A stretch of DNA of 64,000 nt. It comes from Lentisphaeria bacterium. Its GTDB lineage: Bacteria > Verrucomicrobiota > Lentisphaeria > Victivallales > Victivallaceae. A model generated the notes under the pieces. The model was given only the letters and a program-made list of their open reading frames with translations, was not told the DNA's origin and ran no database searches. Shown here piece after piece: positions 13,849 through 20,833 of this stretch; position 1 is the first letter of the stretch, and every line of letters starts with the position of its first letter. The stretch spans positions 1-64,000 of the forward strand of contig JALEMG010000022.1 in NCBI GenBank assembly GCA_022768375.1, given 5' to 3'. Position numbers and translations under genes: made by a program.

Positions 13849-15110
13849 CGAAAACCCGGTCGGCGGCGGCGGTGATGCTGGCGGCGGCGGTCGCGCTGAC
13901 CGGAGCGGCCGCCGAGGATGCGCTGGTCCGCCGGGCGCGGACCGGGGACGCGGAGAGCCAACTGCAACTGGCGGACGAATTCATGTTCGGGCGCAATGGT
14001 CGGCCCGTTTCGCCGCCGCTGGCGGTCTACTGGTTCCGGCAGGCGGCGCTGGGCGGTTCTCCGGTCGGTCAGTACAATCTGGCCATGTGCTATCTTCAGG
14101 GCTGGGGCGGGGAGAAGCGTCCGGCGGCGGCGTTCCGGTACTTCGGGAAAGCCATGACCGGCGGGGTGGACAAAGCCGCGCTGCGTTACGCCGAGCAACT
14201 TCACGACGGGGTCCCGGCGGCGACCGATCCCGAGGGAGAATTTCCCGAAGTCAAACCCGATCCGGACGGCGCGCTGAACATCCTGCGCCGGATCGCGCCG
14301 CGGGACCGGGAGGCGCAACTGCTTTTGGCGCGGTATCTTTTCCGTCATGCGGACCGGCATGCCGACGAACTGCTGCCGCTGCTGGAACGGCACGCCTCCG
14401 GCTCCGCCCCGGACCCCGAAATGCTGATCCTCTACGCCGCGTGTCTGCGTTCCGGCATCGGCGGCGGAGGCGATTCGCAGTTGGCGGCGCGGGTCCTGGA
14501 ACGGGCGGCGGCCGCCGGGAACCCGGAAGCCATGGCGCAGTTGGCGGAGATACTGCACGGCGGATTCGGCGTGAAAGTCGACCATGCGCGGGGCGACGAA
14601 CTGCTTGACCGGGCGCTGGCGCTGGGTTCGTCCCGGGCCATGGTCGTCCGGGGGATGGAATACCTGACCGGCCTCCGGTATCCTCACGATCCGGTGCGGG
14701 CGTTTGAACTTTTCCGGCAGGCGGCGAAAAAGGAATATCCCCCCGCATGGCGGCAACTGGGCCTGTGTTACGCTTCCGGCATCGGGACGCCGCGCAGTGA
14801 GGAACTGGCGTTTCAGTGCTTTTTTCATGCGGCGCGGGCCGGAGACGCCCCGGCTCAGTTCCATCTTGCGGAGTGTTTCCGTTACGGACGGGGGACGGAG
14901 GCGGATTTCGCGGCCGCGTTCTACTGGTACGCCCGGGGCGCGGCCGGCGGCAGTCCGGATGCGATGCGGGAAACGGGGGAAGCGCTGCTCGCCGGCCGGG
15001 GAACGGCCCCGAACCGGGAGCAGGCGATGCAATGGCTGGAACGGGCGGCGCGGGCCGGAGACCGTTCCGCGGCGGCGGCGCTGGGACTCAGTGACGCAGG
15101 GCCGTTCTGA
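13845..15110 (+). CDS. Secreted Sel1-repeat (TPR-like) protein
   Basis: The 421-residue protein has an N-terminal signal peptide ending near AAAED, then many Sel1-like helical repeats with the pattern A..WFRQAALGGSPxxQYNLAxCYLQGxG. Clear units occur at about 40-110, 165-260 and 275-405. Such alpha/alpha solenoids mediate protein-protein contacts in the periplasm. It is translationally coupled to lpxD. Its 3' end overlaps the convergent phage-module gene by 23 bp, so the module abuts the gene without damaging it. Confidence 0.85.
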   Translation: MTKTRSAAAVMLAAAVALTGAAAEDALVRRARTGDAESQLQLADEFMFGRNGRPVSPPLAVYWFRQAALGGSPVGQYNLAMCYLQGWGGEKRPAAAFRYFGKAMTGGVDKAALRYAEQLHDGVPAATDPEGEFPEVKPDPDGALNILRRIAPRDREAQLLLARYLFRHADRHADELLPLLERHASGSAPDPEMLILYAACLRSGIGGGGDSQLAARVLERAAAAGNPEAMAQLAEILHGGFGVKVDHARGDELLDRALALGSSRAMVVRGMEYLTGLRYPHDPVRAFELFRQAAKKEYPPAWRQLGLCYASGIGTPRSEELAFQCFFHAARAGDAPAQFHLAECFRYGRGTEADFAAAFYWYARGAAGGSPDAMRETGEALLAGRGTAPNREQAMQWLERAARAGDRSAAAALGLSDAGPF

Positions 15111-15330
15111 TCCCGCTCCACAGCGCGGTCAGCAAGCCGCCGATGGCGGTGGCGATGACTCCGGTGAGCATGACCTTGCGGCAGGTACGCCAGGTTTCCG
15201 CGAAACTGATCAGTTCCCGGGCCGTAGCGTCGTCGATCCCAAGTTGACAGGGCGCGGGGGCCTGCGCCAGCGCGCGGGAAACGGCGGCGGCCGCCAGTTC
15301 TGCGATCTCCTGTTTTTCCGTGTCGGTCAT
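15088..15330 (-). CDS. Small one-segment membrane protein at the end of the phage module
   Basis: An 80-residue protein starting MTDTEKQEIAELAAAAV, with one strong membrane helix near the C-terminus (KVMLTGVIATAIGGLLTALW) and a short basic tail. It follows the DUF1353 gene with an ATGA overlap. Size, topology and position after the tail-fibre genes suggest a holin-like or lysis-cassette protein, but no lysozyme gene is present and I cannot confirm that. Confidence 0.6.
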   Translation of the reverse strand: MTDTEKQEIAELAAAAVSRALAQAPAPCQLGIDDATARELISFAETWRTCRKVMLTGVIATAIGGLLTALWSGIRTALRH

Positions 15331-15686
15331 GCCTCGCCCCGCCACGCTTTGCCGCCGAACAGCCGAACGCCCCAGTAGGCTTTTTGAGCGGCCCACCACG
15401 AGAGGCCGTCCTCCCGGATGAATTCGTAAAACATCTCGTCCGCTTCCTTTCTGGTCCAGTTCTCCGGCGCGGTGCGGTAGAGGAAGTCGTGCACCACCGC
15501 TCCCCGCAACGTGCACGGGTCGAGCCGCGGTGAAATACTGCTCCACAGCAGCCGGGGTACGCTGGCTCCGTCGCTCTCGAATCCCGCCGGGACCGTCACG
15601 ACGCGCCCATGCCACCGCACGGTCAGATCTTCCGTCAGCGTGAGGATGTCGCCGCGTTCGGTTTCCTGATGGATGTCCACGCGCAT
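15327..15686 (-). CDS. DUF1353-type phage protein
   Basis: The 119-residue product shows the DUF1353 pattern: 'VTVPAGFESDGASVPRLLW', then a conserved 'RGAVVHDFLYR' and a Trp-rich C-terminal helix (GLSWWAAQKAYWGVRLFGG). This family is found in tailed phages and prophages near tail-fibre and lysis genes; its function is unknown. A GGGAGGAG ribosome-binding site sits just before the ATG. Confidence 0.75.
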   Translation of the reverse strand: MRVDIHQETERGDILTLTEDLTVRWHGRVVTVPAGFESDGASVPRLLWSSISPRLDPCTLRGAVVHDFLYRTAPENWTRKEADEMFYEFIREDGLSWWAAQKAYWGVRLFGGKAWRGEA

Positions 15687-15687
15687 G

Positions 15688-16029
15688 TCACTCCTCCCAC
15701 AGGCACTCGTCCAGACGCGATTTCACGTCCTCCGGGACGGTGGCGAGAAACGCCGCAAAAACCGGGTCGTTTTCTGCGAGATATTCCGCCGCCATGAACT
15801 GATCCAGCACTCCCGCCGCTTCCATCTGCGTTTTGTAGGTCGCCCAATCGTCGGCAAGCGCCCGGATGGTCTTGAGTTTGCTGTATTTCTTCGGCGGCGG
15901 CTCCGGCGCGGGCGGTTCGACCCATTCGTATCCGGCATCGCGCATCTGCGCGTCCGTGGGGTTGAAAATCCGCCGTCCGTTGTTCACGAGGCTGCCGCCC
16001 GAAAAAACTTTACCGTCTTTGATCCACAT
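15688..16029 (-). CDS. Phage tail accessory protein, hypothetical
   Basis: A 113-residue protein. Its N-terminus reads MWIKDGKVFSGGSLVNNGRR and then a 'NPTDAQMRDAGYEWVEPP' segment that resembles the start of small phage tail or tail-fibre accessory proteins. A Pro-rich hinge and a helical C-terminus follow (KLKTIRALADDWATYKTQME...). The ribosome-binding site is AGGAG. It lies directly after the AIDA-repeat gene and before DUF1353, which supports a virion or tail-assembly role. Confidence 0.6.
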   Translation of the reverse strand: MWIKDGKVFSGGSLVNNGRRIFNPTDAQMRDAGYEWVEPPAPEPPPKKYSKLKTIRALADDWATYKTQMEAAGVLDQFMAAEYLAENDPVFAAFLATVPEDVKSRLDECLWEE

Positions 16030-16046
16030 GATAAAATCTCCTGTTG

Positions 16047-16760
16047 TTACGCGTATTCGATATAACCGCCCGCGCTGACGACGACCGTGGCGCCGGTATT
16101 CGATGTGACCGCTAACGCCGTGCCGCCGCTCATAACGACCAGCCGTCCGCCGGATTCAACGGTGATGCCCGACACGAACCCTCCGCTGATCCCGGCCGAG
16201 CATGCGCCGGAGGATTTGATCGTGGCATTGAGCGCGCTTCCGCCGAAAACCGGATATAGAAGGCCGCCGCGGCTCACCGTTGTGTCCGTCGCAATGCCGC
16301 CGTAACGCTGAACGAAATAGCCGCCGGAAAGGACGGTCGCGGAACTGGCCGAGCCTCCGGTATTGATGTAAAGTTTGGCCGCGTTGGTGTCGTAAGCGCT
16401 CATCGTGGCGTTGGTGCAAAGAGCGCCGGAACTGATGTGAGCCTCGCCACTGTGATAAACATTCAGATTTTCGGCCAGTCCGCCGGAAAAGGCCGACATC
16501 CTGCCTTCTACGTGAACGGCGGTGTTCTTCGCGATCCCGCCGTTGGAGACGATTTGCAGCCCGCTGCCGAACAAATAAGCATCGCTCGCCACGCCGTTGC
16601 TGAAAACATACTGGGTCATACCCTCGACCTCGACATACGGCATGTGCATTCCCGACGAGATAACGTCCGCACCCGATTTCAACCACACGCCGGTCTCGCC
16701 GTAGATCGGCTGAATTTGGATGCCGCCGTTGGCGACCATCAGTTGTCTGCGCCCACTCAT
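16047..16760 (-). CDS. AIDA-like repeat protein, putative phage receptor-binding or fibre protein
   Basis: The 237-residue product is almost wholly built of roughly 18-20-residue beta repeats with the pattern GGxAxxTxVxSGGxxxVxxG, as in the passenger domain of AIDA-type adhesins. It has neither a signal peptide nor an autotransporter barrel, so it is not a conventional adhesin. Its place between a collagen-like fibre gene and tail accessory genes suggests a beta-helical tail tip that contacts the host surface. The ribosome-binding site GGAGGTG lies directly behind the hairpin-rich element upstream. Confidence 0.7.
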   Translation of the reverse strand: MSGRRQLMVANGGIQIQPIYGETGVWLKSGADVISSGMHMPYVEVEGMTQYVFSNGVASDAYLFGSGLQIVSNGGIAKNTAVHVEGRMSAFSGGLAENLNVYHSGEAHISSGALCTNATMSAYDTNAAKLYINTGGSASSATVLSGGYFVQRYGGIATDTTVSRGGLLYPVFGGSALNATIKSSGACSAGISGGFVSGITVESGGRLVVMSGGTALAVTSNTGATVVVSAGGYIEYA

Positions 16761-16764
16761 TCTG

Positions 16765-16953
16765 TCACCTCCAAAAAGTCACCTTGCGGCGGCATTTGAG
16801 CCGCCTCACCGCTGGCGCGGCTCCGGGTGACTTTTCGGAGACCGCGGTATGACATTGACGACACTTGTGTCGCCACTGTCGCTCTGCGACATTCCAATGC
16901 TCACCCCTTGCGGGGTTGCGCGTTTCATATCTTGAGATATGGCAGTTGTTCAT
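16765..16953 (-). ncRNA. Candidate structured RNA (six hairpins, GNRA loop), overlapping a possible 62-aa ORF
   Basis: On the minus strand consecutive perfect hairpins occur: CATATC-TCAA-GATATG (16926-16941), ACCCC-GCAA-GGGGT (16903-16916), TGTCGC-AGA-GCGACA (16877-16891) and CGACA-CAAG-TGTCG (16859-16872). A three-way junction follows: a 10-bp outer stem AAAAGTCACC / GGTGACTTTT (16774-16783 with 16826-16835) enclosing GGCGGC / GCCGCC and CCGC / GCGG hairpins. The GCAA loop is a GNRA tetraloop only on the minus strand, the coding strand of the module. The element fills the whole gap between two fibre genes. An ATG at 16953 opens a 62-codon, Arg-rich frame that ends at 16765; a GGGTGGA site precedes it, so translation cannot be excluded. 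Confidence 0.5.
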
Positions 16954-16955
16954 TT

Positions 16956-17942
16956 TTATTCCACCCCCGGGGTGTATTCGGCGGCGACGAGCATATTGTC
17001 CCGGACGTTGATGACGTAGGACTTGCCGGCCGCGAACGTCGGTTCTCCGATGACGCTGACCGAAGCGGGGATATCCACGGTGAGAGCCGTCCCGCCGGTG
17101 AAAATGACTTCGGATTCATAACGGCTGTTCGCCACACTGGAGAAGGTCAGCCCCTCCAGCGGCTGCTCGAACGTCCAGTGCGTCCCGCCGGTGAGCGCCA
17201 TGGTGATGTCGCTTCCCGTCCCGCCGGTCACGTAGACCATCAGCGGATCGCCCGGATCGCCTTTGTCGCCTTTGGGCCCCGCGAAGATCGGTGCGGCCGC
17301 CGACGGCAGACCGGTTTCGCCGTGCCGGGCCCGGATGAGGGTGTCGTCGTCGGCATAGGCGGCGTGCCAGTCTACTCCGTCCGCGCTGTATTCAAAGCAA
17401 AGGGGACGGGAGATGGCCGCTTCGACCTGCGCCGAGGTGTAATAGGCCGGATCGCCGGCGACGGCGGGAGTCCCGGTCCCGGAGAATACCCGGTTCCGCA
17501 CGGTGACGGGGAAGTGCCACGCGAAAATCGCCGCGCCCCGGGTGTCCAGACCGCCGATCTCGCAGAACATCGTCCCCGAACTTTGTCCGCTCAGCGCGGC
17601 GACCATCGCTTCCGCCGCGGTGTTGATCGCCGGAACGGTGAAAACGGTGTGCCCGGCACCGTCCTGCGTCAGGCTGATGCCGGAGATCTGCAGCAGCAGC
17701 GGCGCGTCGGACCCCCGGCACTCCAGATCGAAGGCGCAGTAGTAGGCTCCGGCAGTCAGTTCCGCGGCGGGATAGGCCGGAAGCGCGGTGCTGGCGCTCC
17801 CCGCGTCCCGCCGCAAATCGAATTCCAGTGTGACTTCCGTCCCGAGCATCAGTTCCAGTTCCACGCCGGTGGCGGAACCGAATTCGTCGCTCAGCGTCGC
17901 GCCGGAAGTACCGATTTTCAAAATGTTTCTGATCGTTTGCAT
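16956..17942 (-). CDS. Phage tail-fibre-like protein with collagen-like segment
   Basis: The 328-residue protein starts MQTIRNILKIGTSGATLSDE; I chose this ATG at 17942 for its AAAGGAAC site, since the in-frame upstream part lies in the previous gene. The N-terminal half is beta-rich. Near residue 230 is a short Gly-X-Y collagen-like stretch (GPKGDKGDPGDP), a common trimerising linker in phage fibres. A C-terminal beta domain follows. Position and composition indicate a tail-fibre or baseplate-attached protein. Confidence 0.65.
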   Translation of the reverse strand: MQTIRNILKIGTSGATLSDEFGSATGVELELMLGTEVTLEFDLRRDAGSASTALPAYPAAELTAGAYYCAFDLECRGSDAPLLLQISGISLTQDGAGHTVFTVPAINTAAEAMVAALSGQSSGTMFCEIGGLDTRGAAIFAWHFPVTVRNRVFSGTGTPAVAGDPAYYTSAQVEAAISRPLCFEYSADGVDWHAAYADDDTLIRARHGETGLPSAAAPIFAGPKGDKGDPGDPLMVYVTGGTGSDITMALTGGTHWTFEQPLEGLTFSSVANSRYESEVIFTGGTALTVDIPASVSVIGEPTFAAGKSYVINVRDNMLVAAEYTPGVE

Positions 17943-17953
17943 GTTTGTTCCTT

Positions 17954-19012
17954 TCAACTCAGGTATTGGTAGGGTAAAACCGGATAATTTTCCGGGGTCA
18001 GCCGGATCAGGGGCGCGGAGATCGTCATGCCCGCTTCCCGGGAGAGGATGTTCGATTCCTCCGGCGCGGTGCGCCATGCGGCAAACGTCGATTCCCAGAG
18101 GGGAAATCGCGGGACGTCGCATACTCCGCCGGGACGGATGGTCAGGTCCTGATCGTATTCCTCGTACCACGTCTCGGTCCCGGCCCCGTAACGGCTGACG
18201 AAGAAGCCGCACCGCGTATGGAGGCGGATCGTGAATTCCCCGGTCAGTTCGACCCCGGCGCCGCGAACGTCGGTCCCCCAGGCGGGATCGGCGGAGGCGT
18301 CATAGTACAAGTGCCTTTCGTCGGCGTAATACAGTCCCTCGTTCCGCCGCCAGTACGCTCCGCTGCGCGGATGGCATGAAACGGCGCGCCCCGAAGCCAG
18401 CGTCCGCCGGAGGTCCCGTCCGGCGGGCTGATAGGTCCCGTCCGTCCGGCTGCCGTCGGCGAAATCGACGATGTGCAGCGCCGCGTCGATGCCGAAGACC
18501 CGGCCGCGGTCCCGGCCGCCGGAATCGTTGAACTCCGGCGGCCTCGGATAGCGCACGATCCGGTCCAGCACCTCCGCCGCCGCGTGGAAAAAGGCCATGT
18601 CCGCCCAGCGAAACGGCCGGCTCAACGGGGCGCGGCAGTACGCATAGCCGTCGATGCCAAGTTCCTCGAACAGCGGGTACGTTGCCTGGTTCATGATCCC
18701 CGCCCCGGCCCCGTTCAGCGGGAAAAATTCGCTCCATGCCCCGAACTTCCGGGGATCGAAGGAATTGTCCACCAGCCGGGCGATCCTCCTTACGAGGTTG
18801 TTCGCAAACGGGAGCGGCAGTTGCGCCGTCCCGGAGGCGCCGTAACCGCTCAGGCGGAACGGGCGGGGCGGGATCTCCAGCGGGTAGTACGTTGCGGATG
18901 TCGTCAGTTTGAAGAAGCGCTCCCGCTCCTCCACCGCCTCTCTCAGCCGGACGCAGACTTCGCGCAGGTCCAGCGGGCGGTCGTTGAACCAGTCCGCGCT
19001 CACAGTACCCAC
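17954..19012 (-). CDS. Phage module protein, unknown (352 aa)
   Basis: I do not recognise this protein. It begins at a GTG inside the 3' end of the previous gene (13-bp overlap), which suggests translational coupling. It is rich in aromatic residues and arginine, with segments such as YRRNEGLYYADERHLYYDAS and CGFFVSRYGAGTETWYEEYD, and has no signal peptide or membrane helix. The position between other structural genes suggests a virion or tail component. Confidence 0.6.
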   Translation of the reverse strand: MGTVSADWFNDRPLDLREVCVRLREAVEERERFFKLTTSATYYPLEIPPRPFRLSGYGASGTAQLPLPFANNLVRRIARLVDNSFDPRKFGAWSEFFPLNGAGAGIMNQATYPLFEELGIDGYAYCRAPLSRPFRWADMAFFHAAAEVLDRIVRYPRPPEFNDSGGRDRGRVFGIDAALHIVDFADGSRTDGTYQPAGRDLRRTLASGRAVSCHPRSGAYWRRNEGLYYADERHLYYDASADPAWGTDVRGAGVELTGEFTIRLHTRCGFFVSRYGAGTETWYEEYDQDLTIRPGGVCDVPRFPLWESTFAAWRTAPEESNILSREAGMTISAPLIRLTPENYPVLPYQYLS

Positions 19013-19548
19013 CCCGGCAGATCAATGGTTGCGTAATACGGGACCTGGATCACCTTTCCGCTCGGATATATCTGCGCCACTTCAAAGGCGAAGCAGTCGC
19101 CGCTCGGGATGCTCCCGGTGGTGGTCTGAAACGCCGCGGAGTACACCGGGTTGCCGGCGGCGTCGCGGGCCCAGGAGATCACGAGAAAAAGATGCAGCCG
19201 CACCGCCCCGCCGAACCGGACCGTCACGTCGGTGCGGGGGATGTTGGAGAGGGTCGGGAAGTTCACCCGGCCGCAAACCGGAGAGGACGGATCGGCGCCG
19301 TCTTCGATCCGGAAGGTGCCGTGTTCCGGCGAAACGCACCGGACATGAAAGGATCCCCGGTACGGCGGGACCCACGGGCCGAGTTCCACGATCGCCGGGA
19401 GCCACTCCCCGCTTTCGGAGTTATAGACCGGCGGGGCCAGCACCACCGCGCTACCGGATCCGCCCGGGATGAGGCCGTCGGCGGAGGGGAGGACGGTGTC
19501 CCCGTAAGTCACCCCCGGAAACGGGGCGCCGGCGACACGGGCGGTCAC
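19000..19548 (-). CDS. Phage module protein, unknown (182 aa, GTG start)
   Basis: An unrecognised beta-rich protein ending PYYATIDLPGWVL. The only ordinary start is GTG at 19548 with a poorly spaced AGGGG site. Its frame is the same as that of the preceding 102-aa gene, separated only by a TGA at 19582-19584 and 11 sense codons. It may therefore be the second half of one longer protein split by a stop, or a coupled separate gene. Confidence 0.5.
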   Translation of the reverse strand: MTARVAGAPFPGVTYGDTVLPSADGLIPGGSGSAVVLAPPVYNSESGEWLPAIVELGPWVPPYRGSFHVRCVSPEHGTFRIEDGADPSSPVCGRVNFPTLSNIPRTDVTVRFGGAVRLHLFLVISWARDAAGNPVYSAAFQTTTGSIPSGDCFAFEVAQIYPSGKVIQVPYYATIDLPGWVL

Positions 19549-19581
19549 CGCCGCCGCCGGCCCCTGCAGGACGGCCTGTCC

Positions 19582-19890
19582 TCATGAGGACGGCGGGATC
19601 GGTCCGGTGCTCAGCGCCCACGGCGTCCGGTCGTTTTCGGCGGGGAAGACACGCCACGCCGGGAGTTGATCCGGCGCGGCCGACCGGATCGCTCCGTTCA
19701 GCGCGACCGGGAAAAACGCCGCTATCTCGGTCCCGCTGTCGTTGTACACGTCGATGAGAAAGGGGCGCTCCGGCGGGAGTTTCGGCGGCGGAGCGGCGGC
19801 GTCGCCCCGGAGCAGACGGTTGACCGCGTTATGGCGGCGGGCGGATTCCGGGCGGTACGGTGTCCCGGCGACGATGTCTTCAAAGAACAT
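19582..19890 (-). CDS. Phage module protein, unknown (102 aa)
   Basis: The protein starts [27 protein letters not shown], a pattern seen in phage proteins that begin with a short attachment segment. A beta-rich region follows ([22 protein letters not shown]). The ATG has a GGAG site and overlaps the end of the 277-aa gene. The stop is followed in frame by the 182-aa frame. Confidence 0.55.
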
Positions 19891-19893
19891 GAT

Positions 19894-20724
19894 TCATATC
19901 TCCAGCGCATTGAACAAAGTGCGTTCGTAGATCCGGCTGACGTGCAGGGAAGTCACCAGTTCCGTCCCGTTGCCGGGATCGCTGCCGGTGACGGCCCAGA
20001 CGTAATCCCATCCGTCCACGTTCTCCAGCAGTTGTCCGGCGCAGCGGCGGGCCCCGTTGGGGCGGATGGCGAAGTGAAACACCACATCGCAGAGTTCTTC
20101 GCCGGAGGCGTTGTGAAAGATTTCGCCCTGAATGATGCTCTCCAGCAGCACCTCGCCCGGAGCCCAGTGATGAAAGACCGCGGCATTGACTTTGCCGACC
20201 ACCTCCGCCGCCCGCCGTTTGTAGGCGGTGTTGAGCGAAGCGGGACGGAAGGTCGCCCGGCAGATTTCGCAGAAGCGAGGTTCCAGCACCCGGACGCACC
20301 CGGAGACGGACTCCCGCCCGGCGCGGCCGTTCCAGTCCACCCGGGTGCCCGGGTCGATCCGGGCGCTTCCGGAGCGGTAGACGGAACGGACCGTTGCCAG
20401 TGCGTCGGAACGGGTGGCGTAGTCGGAAGTGACGAGGAAGCGCCACCGGCGGTCCCCGGCGCGCCGTTGCCGGCGGGGGGCGTCGGCGGCGGTGTCCCCG
20501 TCGTAGTTTACCGTGACTTCAAAGAGTCCGCCGCCGGGCGCGGCGGTGATCTCCGCGCCGCGCCGCCGGGCGGCGCCGATGCGTTCGGGGGCGTTCCGCC
20601 GCACCGCTTCCGCCGCGGCCGCGGCATCCGGCGACGCCTCGGTCACATAGACGATGCGGGCTTTTTCGCAGTTCCCATCGCGGTCGAGCCGCAGAAGTTC
20701 CCGGTTGGAACGGTTGATTTTCAT
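19894..20724 (-). CDS. Phage module protein, unknown (276 aa)
   Basis: The product starts [33 protein letters not shown] before the ATG at 20724 fixes the start, and upstream in-frame codons belong to the leader region. It includes a Cys pair (EICRATF and SGCVRV) and beta-rich stretches such as [30 protein letters not shown]. No known motif is seen. It lies near the start of the minus-strand module and is likely structural. Confidence 0.55.
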
Positions 20725-20734
20725 GATCGGCACC

Positions 20735-20833
20735 TCATTGATAAGTGGTGCTGTCGCGGAGGGACGCGAGCAATTCGCGCAGTTCGCGCAGTTCATGCAG
20801 GATCTCCGCCAGCAGTTCGGTTGTTTCCATCAT
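20735..20833 (-). CDS. 32-residue leucine-rich helical peptide
   Basis: A short frame starts ATGATG with a perfect GGAGG ribosome-binding site and encodes [20 protein letters not shown] followed by [12 protein letters not shown]. Leucines recur at heptad-like spacing, and the DNA repeats GAACTGCGC, so it should form an amphipathic helix or small coiled coil. It ends 10 bp before the 276-aa gene, so it is probably the first gene of the phage-derived transcript. No clear promoter was found upstream. Confidence 0.6.

Follow-up and report, generated by a model that had tools for sequence, protein, structure and literature searches.

The 64,000-nucleotide stretch of Lentisphaeria DNA analysed here (the window) carries a dense array of hairpins between two tail-type genes, which raises the question of what such an array is and how it came to lie there. 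The upstream gene, of tail type (16956-17942), and the downstream AIDA-type repeat gene (16047-16760) are both on the minus strand, and the module around the gap has its best profile matches among phage-tail families. A sequence-only reading of the locus correctly described the array as filling the gap between these genes, and proposed either a structured RNA of the phage transcript or a composite palindromic mobile element, with a leader peptide as rival. The tail-type genes form a compact module (15088-20796) without other phage genes, located between a Sel1-like gene and rpmH/rnpA. The tail protein of the module was matched in 28 of the 33 other genomes of the genus, with differing genes after it, and the module may be domesticated or a satellite.

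Fold and insertion of the window copy

The minus strand of 16765-16953, the coding strand of the tail genes, folds at -86.3 kcal/mol, compared with -60.0 ± 4.4 kcal/mol for dinucleotide shuffles (z = -6.0), and none of 200 shuffles folded as well. The plus strand of the segment gave a fold z of -4.6. Every structure named in the sequence-only reading was found in the sequence, and the array is real by these fold scores.

The hairpin array occupies an inserted segment (16761-16955, minus strand) that lies between the upstream tail gene's stop codon and the AIDA-repeat gene's start codon, and the copy stands in the transcribed sense. In 18 relatives this junction is nearly closed, with -4 to +39 nt between the stop codon of the corresponding tail gene and the start of the next gene, as against 193 bp in the window. 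The closest relative (G016) reads CCGGGGGTGGAATAATG at the junction, where the window has CCGGGGGTGGAATAA, 193 bp and ATG. These empty-site relatives are moderately close, the best being 52% identical in the tail protein. The comparison indicates that the window copy is an insertion between two tail genes, although its junctions display by eye only a weak AATGA similarity and no clear target duplication. Another genome (G080) has two copies in a related tail module, at a junction other than this one: its flanking genes are homologous to the window genes at 19894-20796 and 19582-19890, which overlap, so that the junction is closed in the window.

The 3' end of the insert contributes a GGAGG located seven bases ahead of the ATG of the AIDA-repeat gene (16760), and the insert may be tolerated at this junction because it supplies such a ribosome-binding site. 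Since the GGAG is buried in an outer stem of the fold, the insert is predicted probably to lower translation of the AIDA-repeat gene, or to couple it to ribosomes traversing the insert.

A covarying repeat family with two domains

The Rfam scan that had been proposed matched no family, either at the gathering threshold or at E up to 5, and blastn against phage records gave no match. The genome of the window (G000) holds this single copy and no second one. A tblastn search with the 62-aa translation of an open frame across the segment identified one true relative at the DNA level, an intergenic locus (L041) in another genome of the genus; the other matches (L042-L045) were spurious. The two loci share the same plan with stems exchanged (GGCGGC-ATTTGA-GCCGCC versus GCCGCC-ATTTGA-GGCGGC, in plus-strand reading). 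A pattern derived from the conserved stretch, GAAACN{8,30}GAGCATTGGAATG, had eight matches in 6 of 100 genomes and none for the reversed control. In all of these, GAAACGCGNA and GAGCATTGGAATG bracket a hairpin whose stem is nearly always different and always paired.

A covariance model (R1) of the core of about 64 nt was built from six sequences, with the window copy left out. Within the genome of the window, R1 recovered this copy (16877-16940, minus strand) with 68 bits and E = 2.5e-16. Among the matches listed, about 107 copies are spread over 19 of the 78 genomes searched in the Lentisphaeria family of the window, and a class-wide run over 198 genomes gave no matches outside it. The exact core, searched in one genome per species (84,980 species), was found only in rumen or uncultured Lentisphaeria contigs, one of them labelled merely as uncultured bacterium. 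The exact core pattern had zero matches in 2.9 million viral contigs, and the copies are not specific to tail genes. Two subfamilies were distinguished. The low-copy one, with a long internal loop, includes the window copy and those of G005, G007, G011, G014, G017, G032, and G080; the high-copy one, with a shorter loop, reaches from at least 10 to at least 22 copies each in G003, G011, G025, and G031. A search of the literature on MITEs or structured noncoding RNAs in Lentisphaerae found nothing on the hairpin element. The repeat family is uncatalogued, and it is scattered through gut Lentisphaeria genomes.

The copies have a common architecture, described here on the minus strand. Domain A comprises P1, P2, an internal loop, and the variable hairpin P4, and corresponds to the conserved core. 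P1 pairs CTC (16934-16936) with GAG (16882-16884) and covaries as UA, GC, and CG; P2 pairs GATAT (16927-16931) with ATGTC (16888-16892), and all five of its pairs are altered on both sides in homologues, with GC, UA, CG, and AU seen directly. P4 (ACCCC-GCAA-GGGGT, 16903-16916), between the conserved GAAACGCGNA and GAGCATTGGA, has a stem that differs in nearly every genome while its pairing is kept. An extra hairpin (16856-16875), also present in copies of G011 and G014, separates domain A from domain B. In domain B, the outer stem P5 joins 16826-16840 to 16769-16783 by complementarity and fold, the latter strand holding the GGAG of the ribosome-binding site that precedes the next gene, and encloses the hairpins P6 (16808-16821, from the fold) and P7 (GGCGGC-TCAAAT-GCCGCC, 16788-16805). 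Homologues retain an outer stem of 12-15 bp and two hairpins. Copies of G005 and G032 (L114, L115, L110, L116) have a further conserved hairpin, GATGGYAT..ATACCRTC, just upstream of domain A, which is perhaps a third domain.

This architecture modifies the earlier description in several respects. The enclosure of two hairpins by an outer stem stood, with a length of 15 bp (93% complementary) instead of 10 bp. Of the six hairpins described, the first (CATATC-TCAA-GATATG) and third (TGTCGC-AGA-GCGACA) are alternatives that arise in the single sequence; homologues favour the long-range pairing of the same segments by P1 and P2. The GCAA loop of P4 (16908-16911) is indeed GNRA on the minus strand only, but it is not conserved, relatives having GCAA, GTCA, CCAA, GACA, and shorter loops, and the GNRA loop was dropped as a defining feature.

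Compensatory base changes, as expected of a structured RNA, are present in the element. The alignment comprises 105 copies (74 distinct); 94.5% of its cells are paired and 12 of 15 pairs are altered on both sides. The helices of domain A covary strongly, with a covariation score of 0.254 compared with 0.085 ± 0.007 for shuffled alignments and at most 0.061 with slid partners; the value of 0.254 overstates independence because the copies are related and were aligned to fit the structure, but the pair types given above for P1 and P2 demonstrate the pairing directly. P7 occurs in four perfectly paired versions with TCNNNN loops (GGCGGC/GCCGCC, GCCGCC/GGCGGC, GGCCGC/GCGGCC, and GGCCCC/GGGGCC), which were chosen for pairing and are therefore descriptive only.

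Homologues also bear on the rival view that a 62-codon leader peptide (16765-16953, minus strand) controls the downstream gene by its translation. The frame begins with a ribosome-binding site and ATG, it ends in a stop codon that overlaps the ribosome-binding site used by the gene behind it, and bridging open frames also occur at the copies of G080 and G017. However, 21% of shuffles have an equally long open stretch in the given frame by chance, and 51% have one when any of the three frames is allowed. It also differs from copy to copy, being shifted by hairpin length in L106, L174, and L135 and interrupted by stops in L075, L114, L115, and L110. The frame is not conserved among homologues. 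The peptide similarity that tblastn picked up is a side effect of the conserved DNA. The leader peptide was rejected as extremely improbable, and the frame is judged not to be a gene.

Dispersal, vehicles, and rival explanations

By a simple gene call, the copies are nearly all intergenic, and these dispersed copies lack coding capacity, as MITEs do. Tandem copies are frequent, with a period of about 145-150 bp, and many copies lie at contig ends. Neighbour genes look diverse from a comparison of their positions and orientations and, at some loci, from inspection by eye, and no constant neighbour was noticed. At L129 (1-560, G117), four tandem copies directly precede a tRNA-like gene, by eye tRNA-Gln, and at L133 (G064) two copies lie ahead of the corresponding gene.

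In G011 the element is enclosed in a unit some 420-490 bp long, with the ends TAATGTCCCAAATTTTGTGAAA and TTTCACAAAAAATGAGACAATA. Duplications that are rich in A/T and at least 8 bp long flank six complete units, and those around copies include TATTTTTT, TATAATTT, AACTGAAT, and TTTTCTTT. The A-B core therefore travels there in a MITE, as the inverted ends and 8-bp duplications indicate. The G011-type terminal inverted repeat has 191 matches in G011 and 9 to 79 in six other genomes of the genus; the reversed-pattern control in G011 had none, and the pattern has zero matches in the genome of the window. The window copy itself displays no recognisable terminal inverted repeat; those of the G011 type were sought there and not found. 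Copies in most other genomes likewise lack recognisable inverted ends and a clear target duplication. Single G011-type ends were seen in G003, G031, and G021, and such ends were not found near copies of other genomes. Most MITEs with G011 ends lack the A-B core.

G011 and six other genomes (L183-L202) harbour a high-copy MITE family with TAWTGTCYCAWWTTTTGTGAAA ends and 8-bp A/T target duplications. These units measure about 160-500 bp and contain several interchangeable hairpin modules. At L100 (2035-3247), two inverted G011 MITE copies surround about 1 kb of sequence with a single gene, possibly a composite unit.

We consider it likely that an inserted copy of a dispersed, non-autonomous repeat makes up this segment, and that the repeat, which has two folded domains, is restricted in the searches made to one Lentisphaeria family. 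This reading is supported by the dispersed and tandem copies, the inverted-repeat vehicles with target duplications in a sister species, and the empty sites at the window locus, and it bears out the earlier suggestion of a composite palindromic mobile element. The repeat would spread by riding in miniature transposons and through tandem duplication. Its foldability may be kept because a folded single strand, of DNA or of a transcript, aids spread or tolerance between genes.

The compensatory changes could equally reflect RNA function, and the element might be a structured RNA with a function of its own, either as a cis-regulator or in trans, that is conserved for that function and only incidentally multi-copy. 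The earlier proposal of a structured RNA holds in so far as compensatory changes preserve the fold, but the tie to the tail transcript is lost, since copies adjoin many unrelated genes. The strong covariation around a conserved internal loop agrees with an RNA, as does orientation: in co-directional gaps the element runs with transcription at 20 loci and opposite to it at 6 (p = 0.009, a value that ignores the shared ancestry of the copies). In P2, G-U wobbles outnumber A-C ones by 24 to 5, an excess that points to the tail-coding-sense strand as the folded one, although P1 wobbles point the opposite way, 1 to 6. Over the element, the two copies of G080 share about 97% identity, compared with 73-75% in the flanks; conservation so far above that of the flanking genes reflects either strong constraint or later spread. 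Against an RNA conserved for its own sake stand the diverse look of the neighbour genes, none of which was seen to be constant, the patchy distribution (19 of 78 genomes), the near-identical multi-copy sets inside single genomes, the inverted-repeat vehicles, and the lack of an Rfam match, and we regard such an RNA as unlikely. Orientation and wobbles are hints that favour selection on this strand of the element, for RNA and single-stranded DNA alike. They do not separate the two, given that REPINs are mobile DNA and also commonly have compensatory changes (PMC3116915).

Mobilization by a REP-associated tyrosine transposase, as in REPINs, would likewise account for extragenic hairpins with compensatory changes (PMC3116915). 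However, the Y1 transposase (PF01797) is rarer in copy-bearing genomes (3 of 19, versus 9 of 20 without copies), and it is absent from the copy-rich G003, G011, G025, and G031. The RAYT association was rejected, and a REPIN-like origin is very unlikely.

A bolder reading than the dispersed-repeat one, to which we give only a small probability, is that the A-B core is a functional RNA organised around its conserved GAAACGCGNA/GAGCATTGGA internal loop, and that this core is the selfish unit itself. It would move between MITE vehicles and bare gene junctions, its fold being recognised instead of inverted-repeat ends.

Relation to known systems and significance

Known repeats for comparison include ERIC and NEMIS, named as MITEs in PMC3116915, and REPINs, extragenic hairpin repeats in which compensatory changes are common (PMC3116915). 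The element resembles MITEs in being short, non-coding, intergenic, multi-copy, and foldable, and in G011 its copies are enclosed by units that end in terminal inverted repeats and are bordered by target duplications of 8 bp. It departs from them in that the A-B core also recurs without inverted ends, in the window among other places, and in that its highly variable stems are separated by unpaired segments that are conserved. With REPINs and other REP elements it shares an extragenic location and compensatory changes (PMC3116915), but it is not a doublet of one short repeat and has no Y1 transposase association. Its covarying helices around conserved internal loops recall the structured RNA families of Rfam, although it matches none of them and no constant gene association was noticed.

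Open frames of the hairpin repeat should not be annotated as genes. The family explains many contig breaks in these Lentisphaeria assemblies. The guess of a phage RNA is replaced by a defined, searchable repeat family with two covarying domains, two subfamilies, and several vehicles. If the fold rather than the ends drives its spread, this family would provide a clean system for learning why bacterial hairpin repeats keep their structure.
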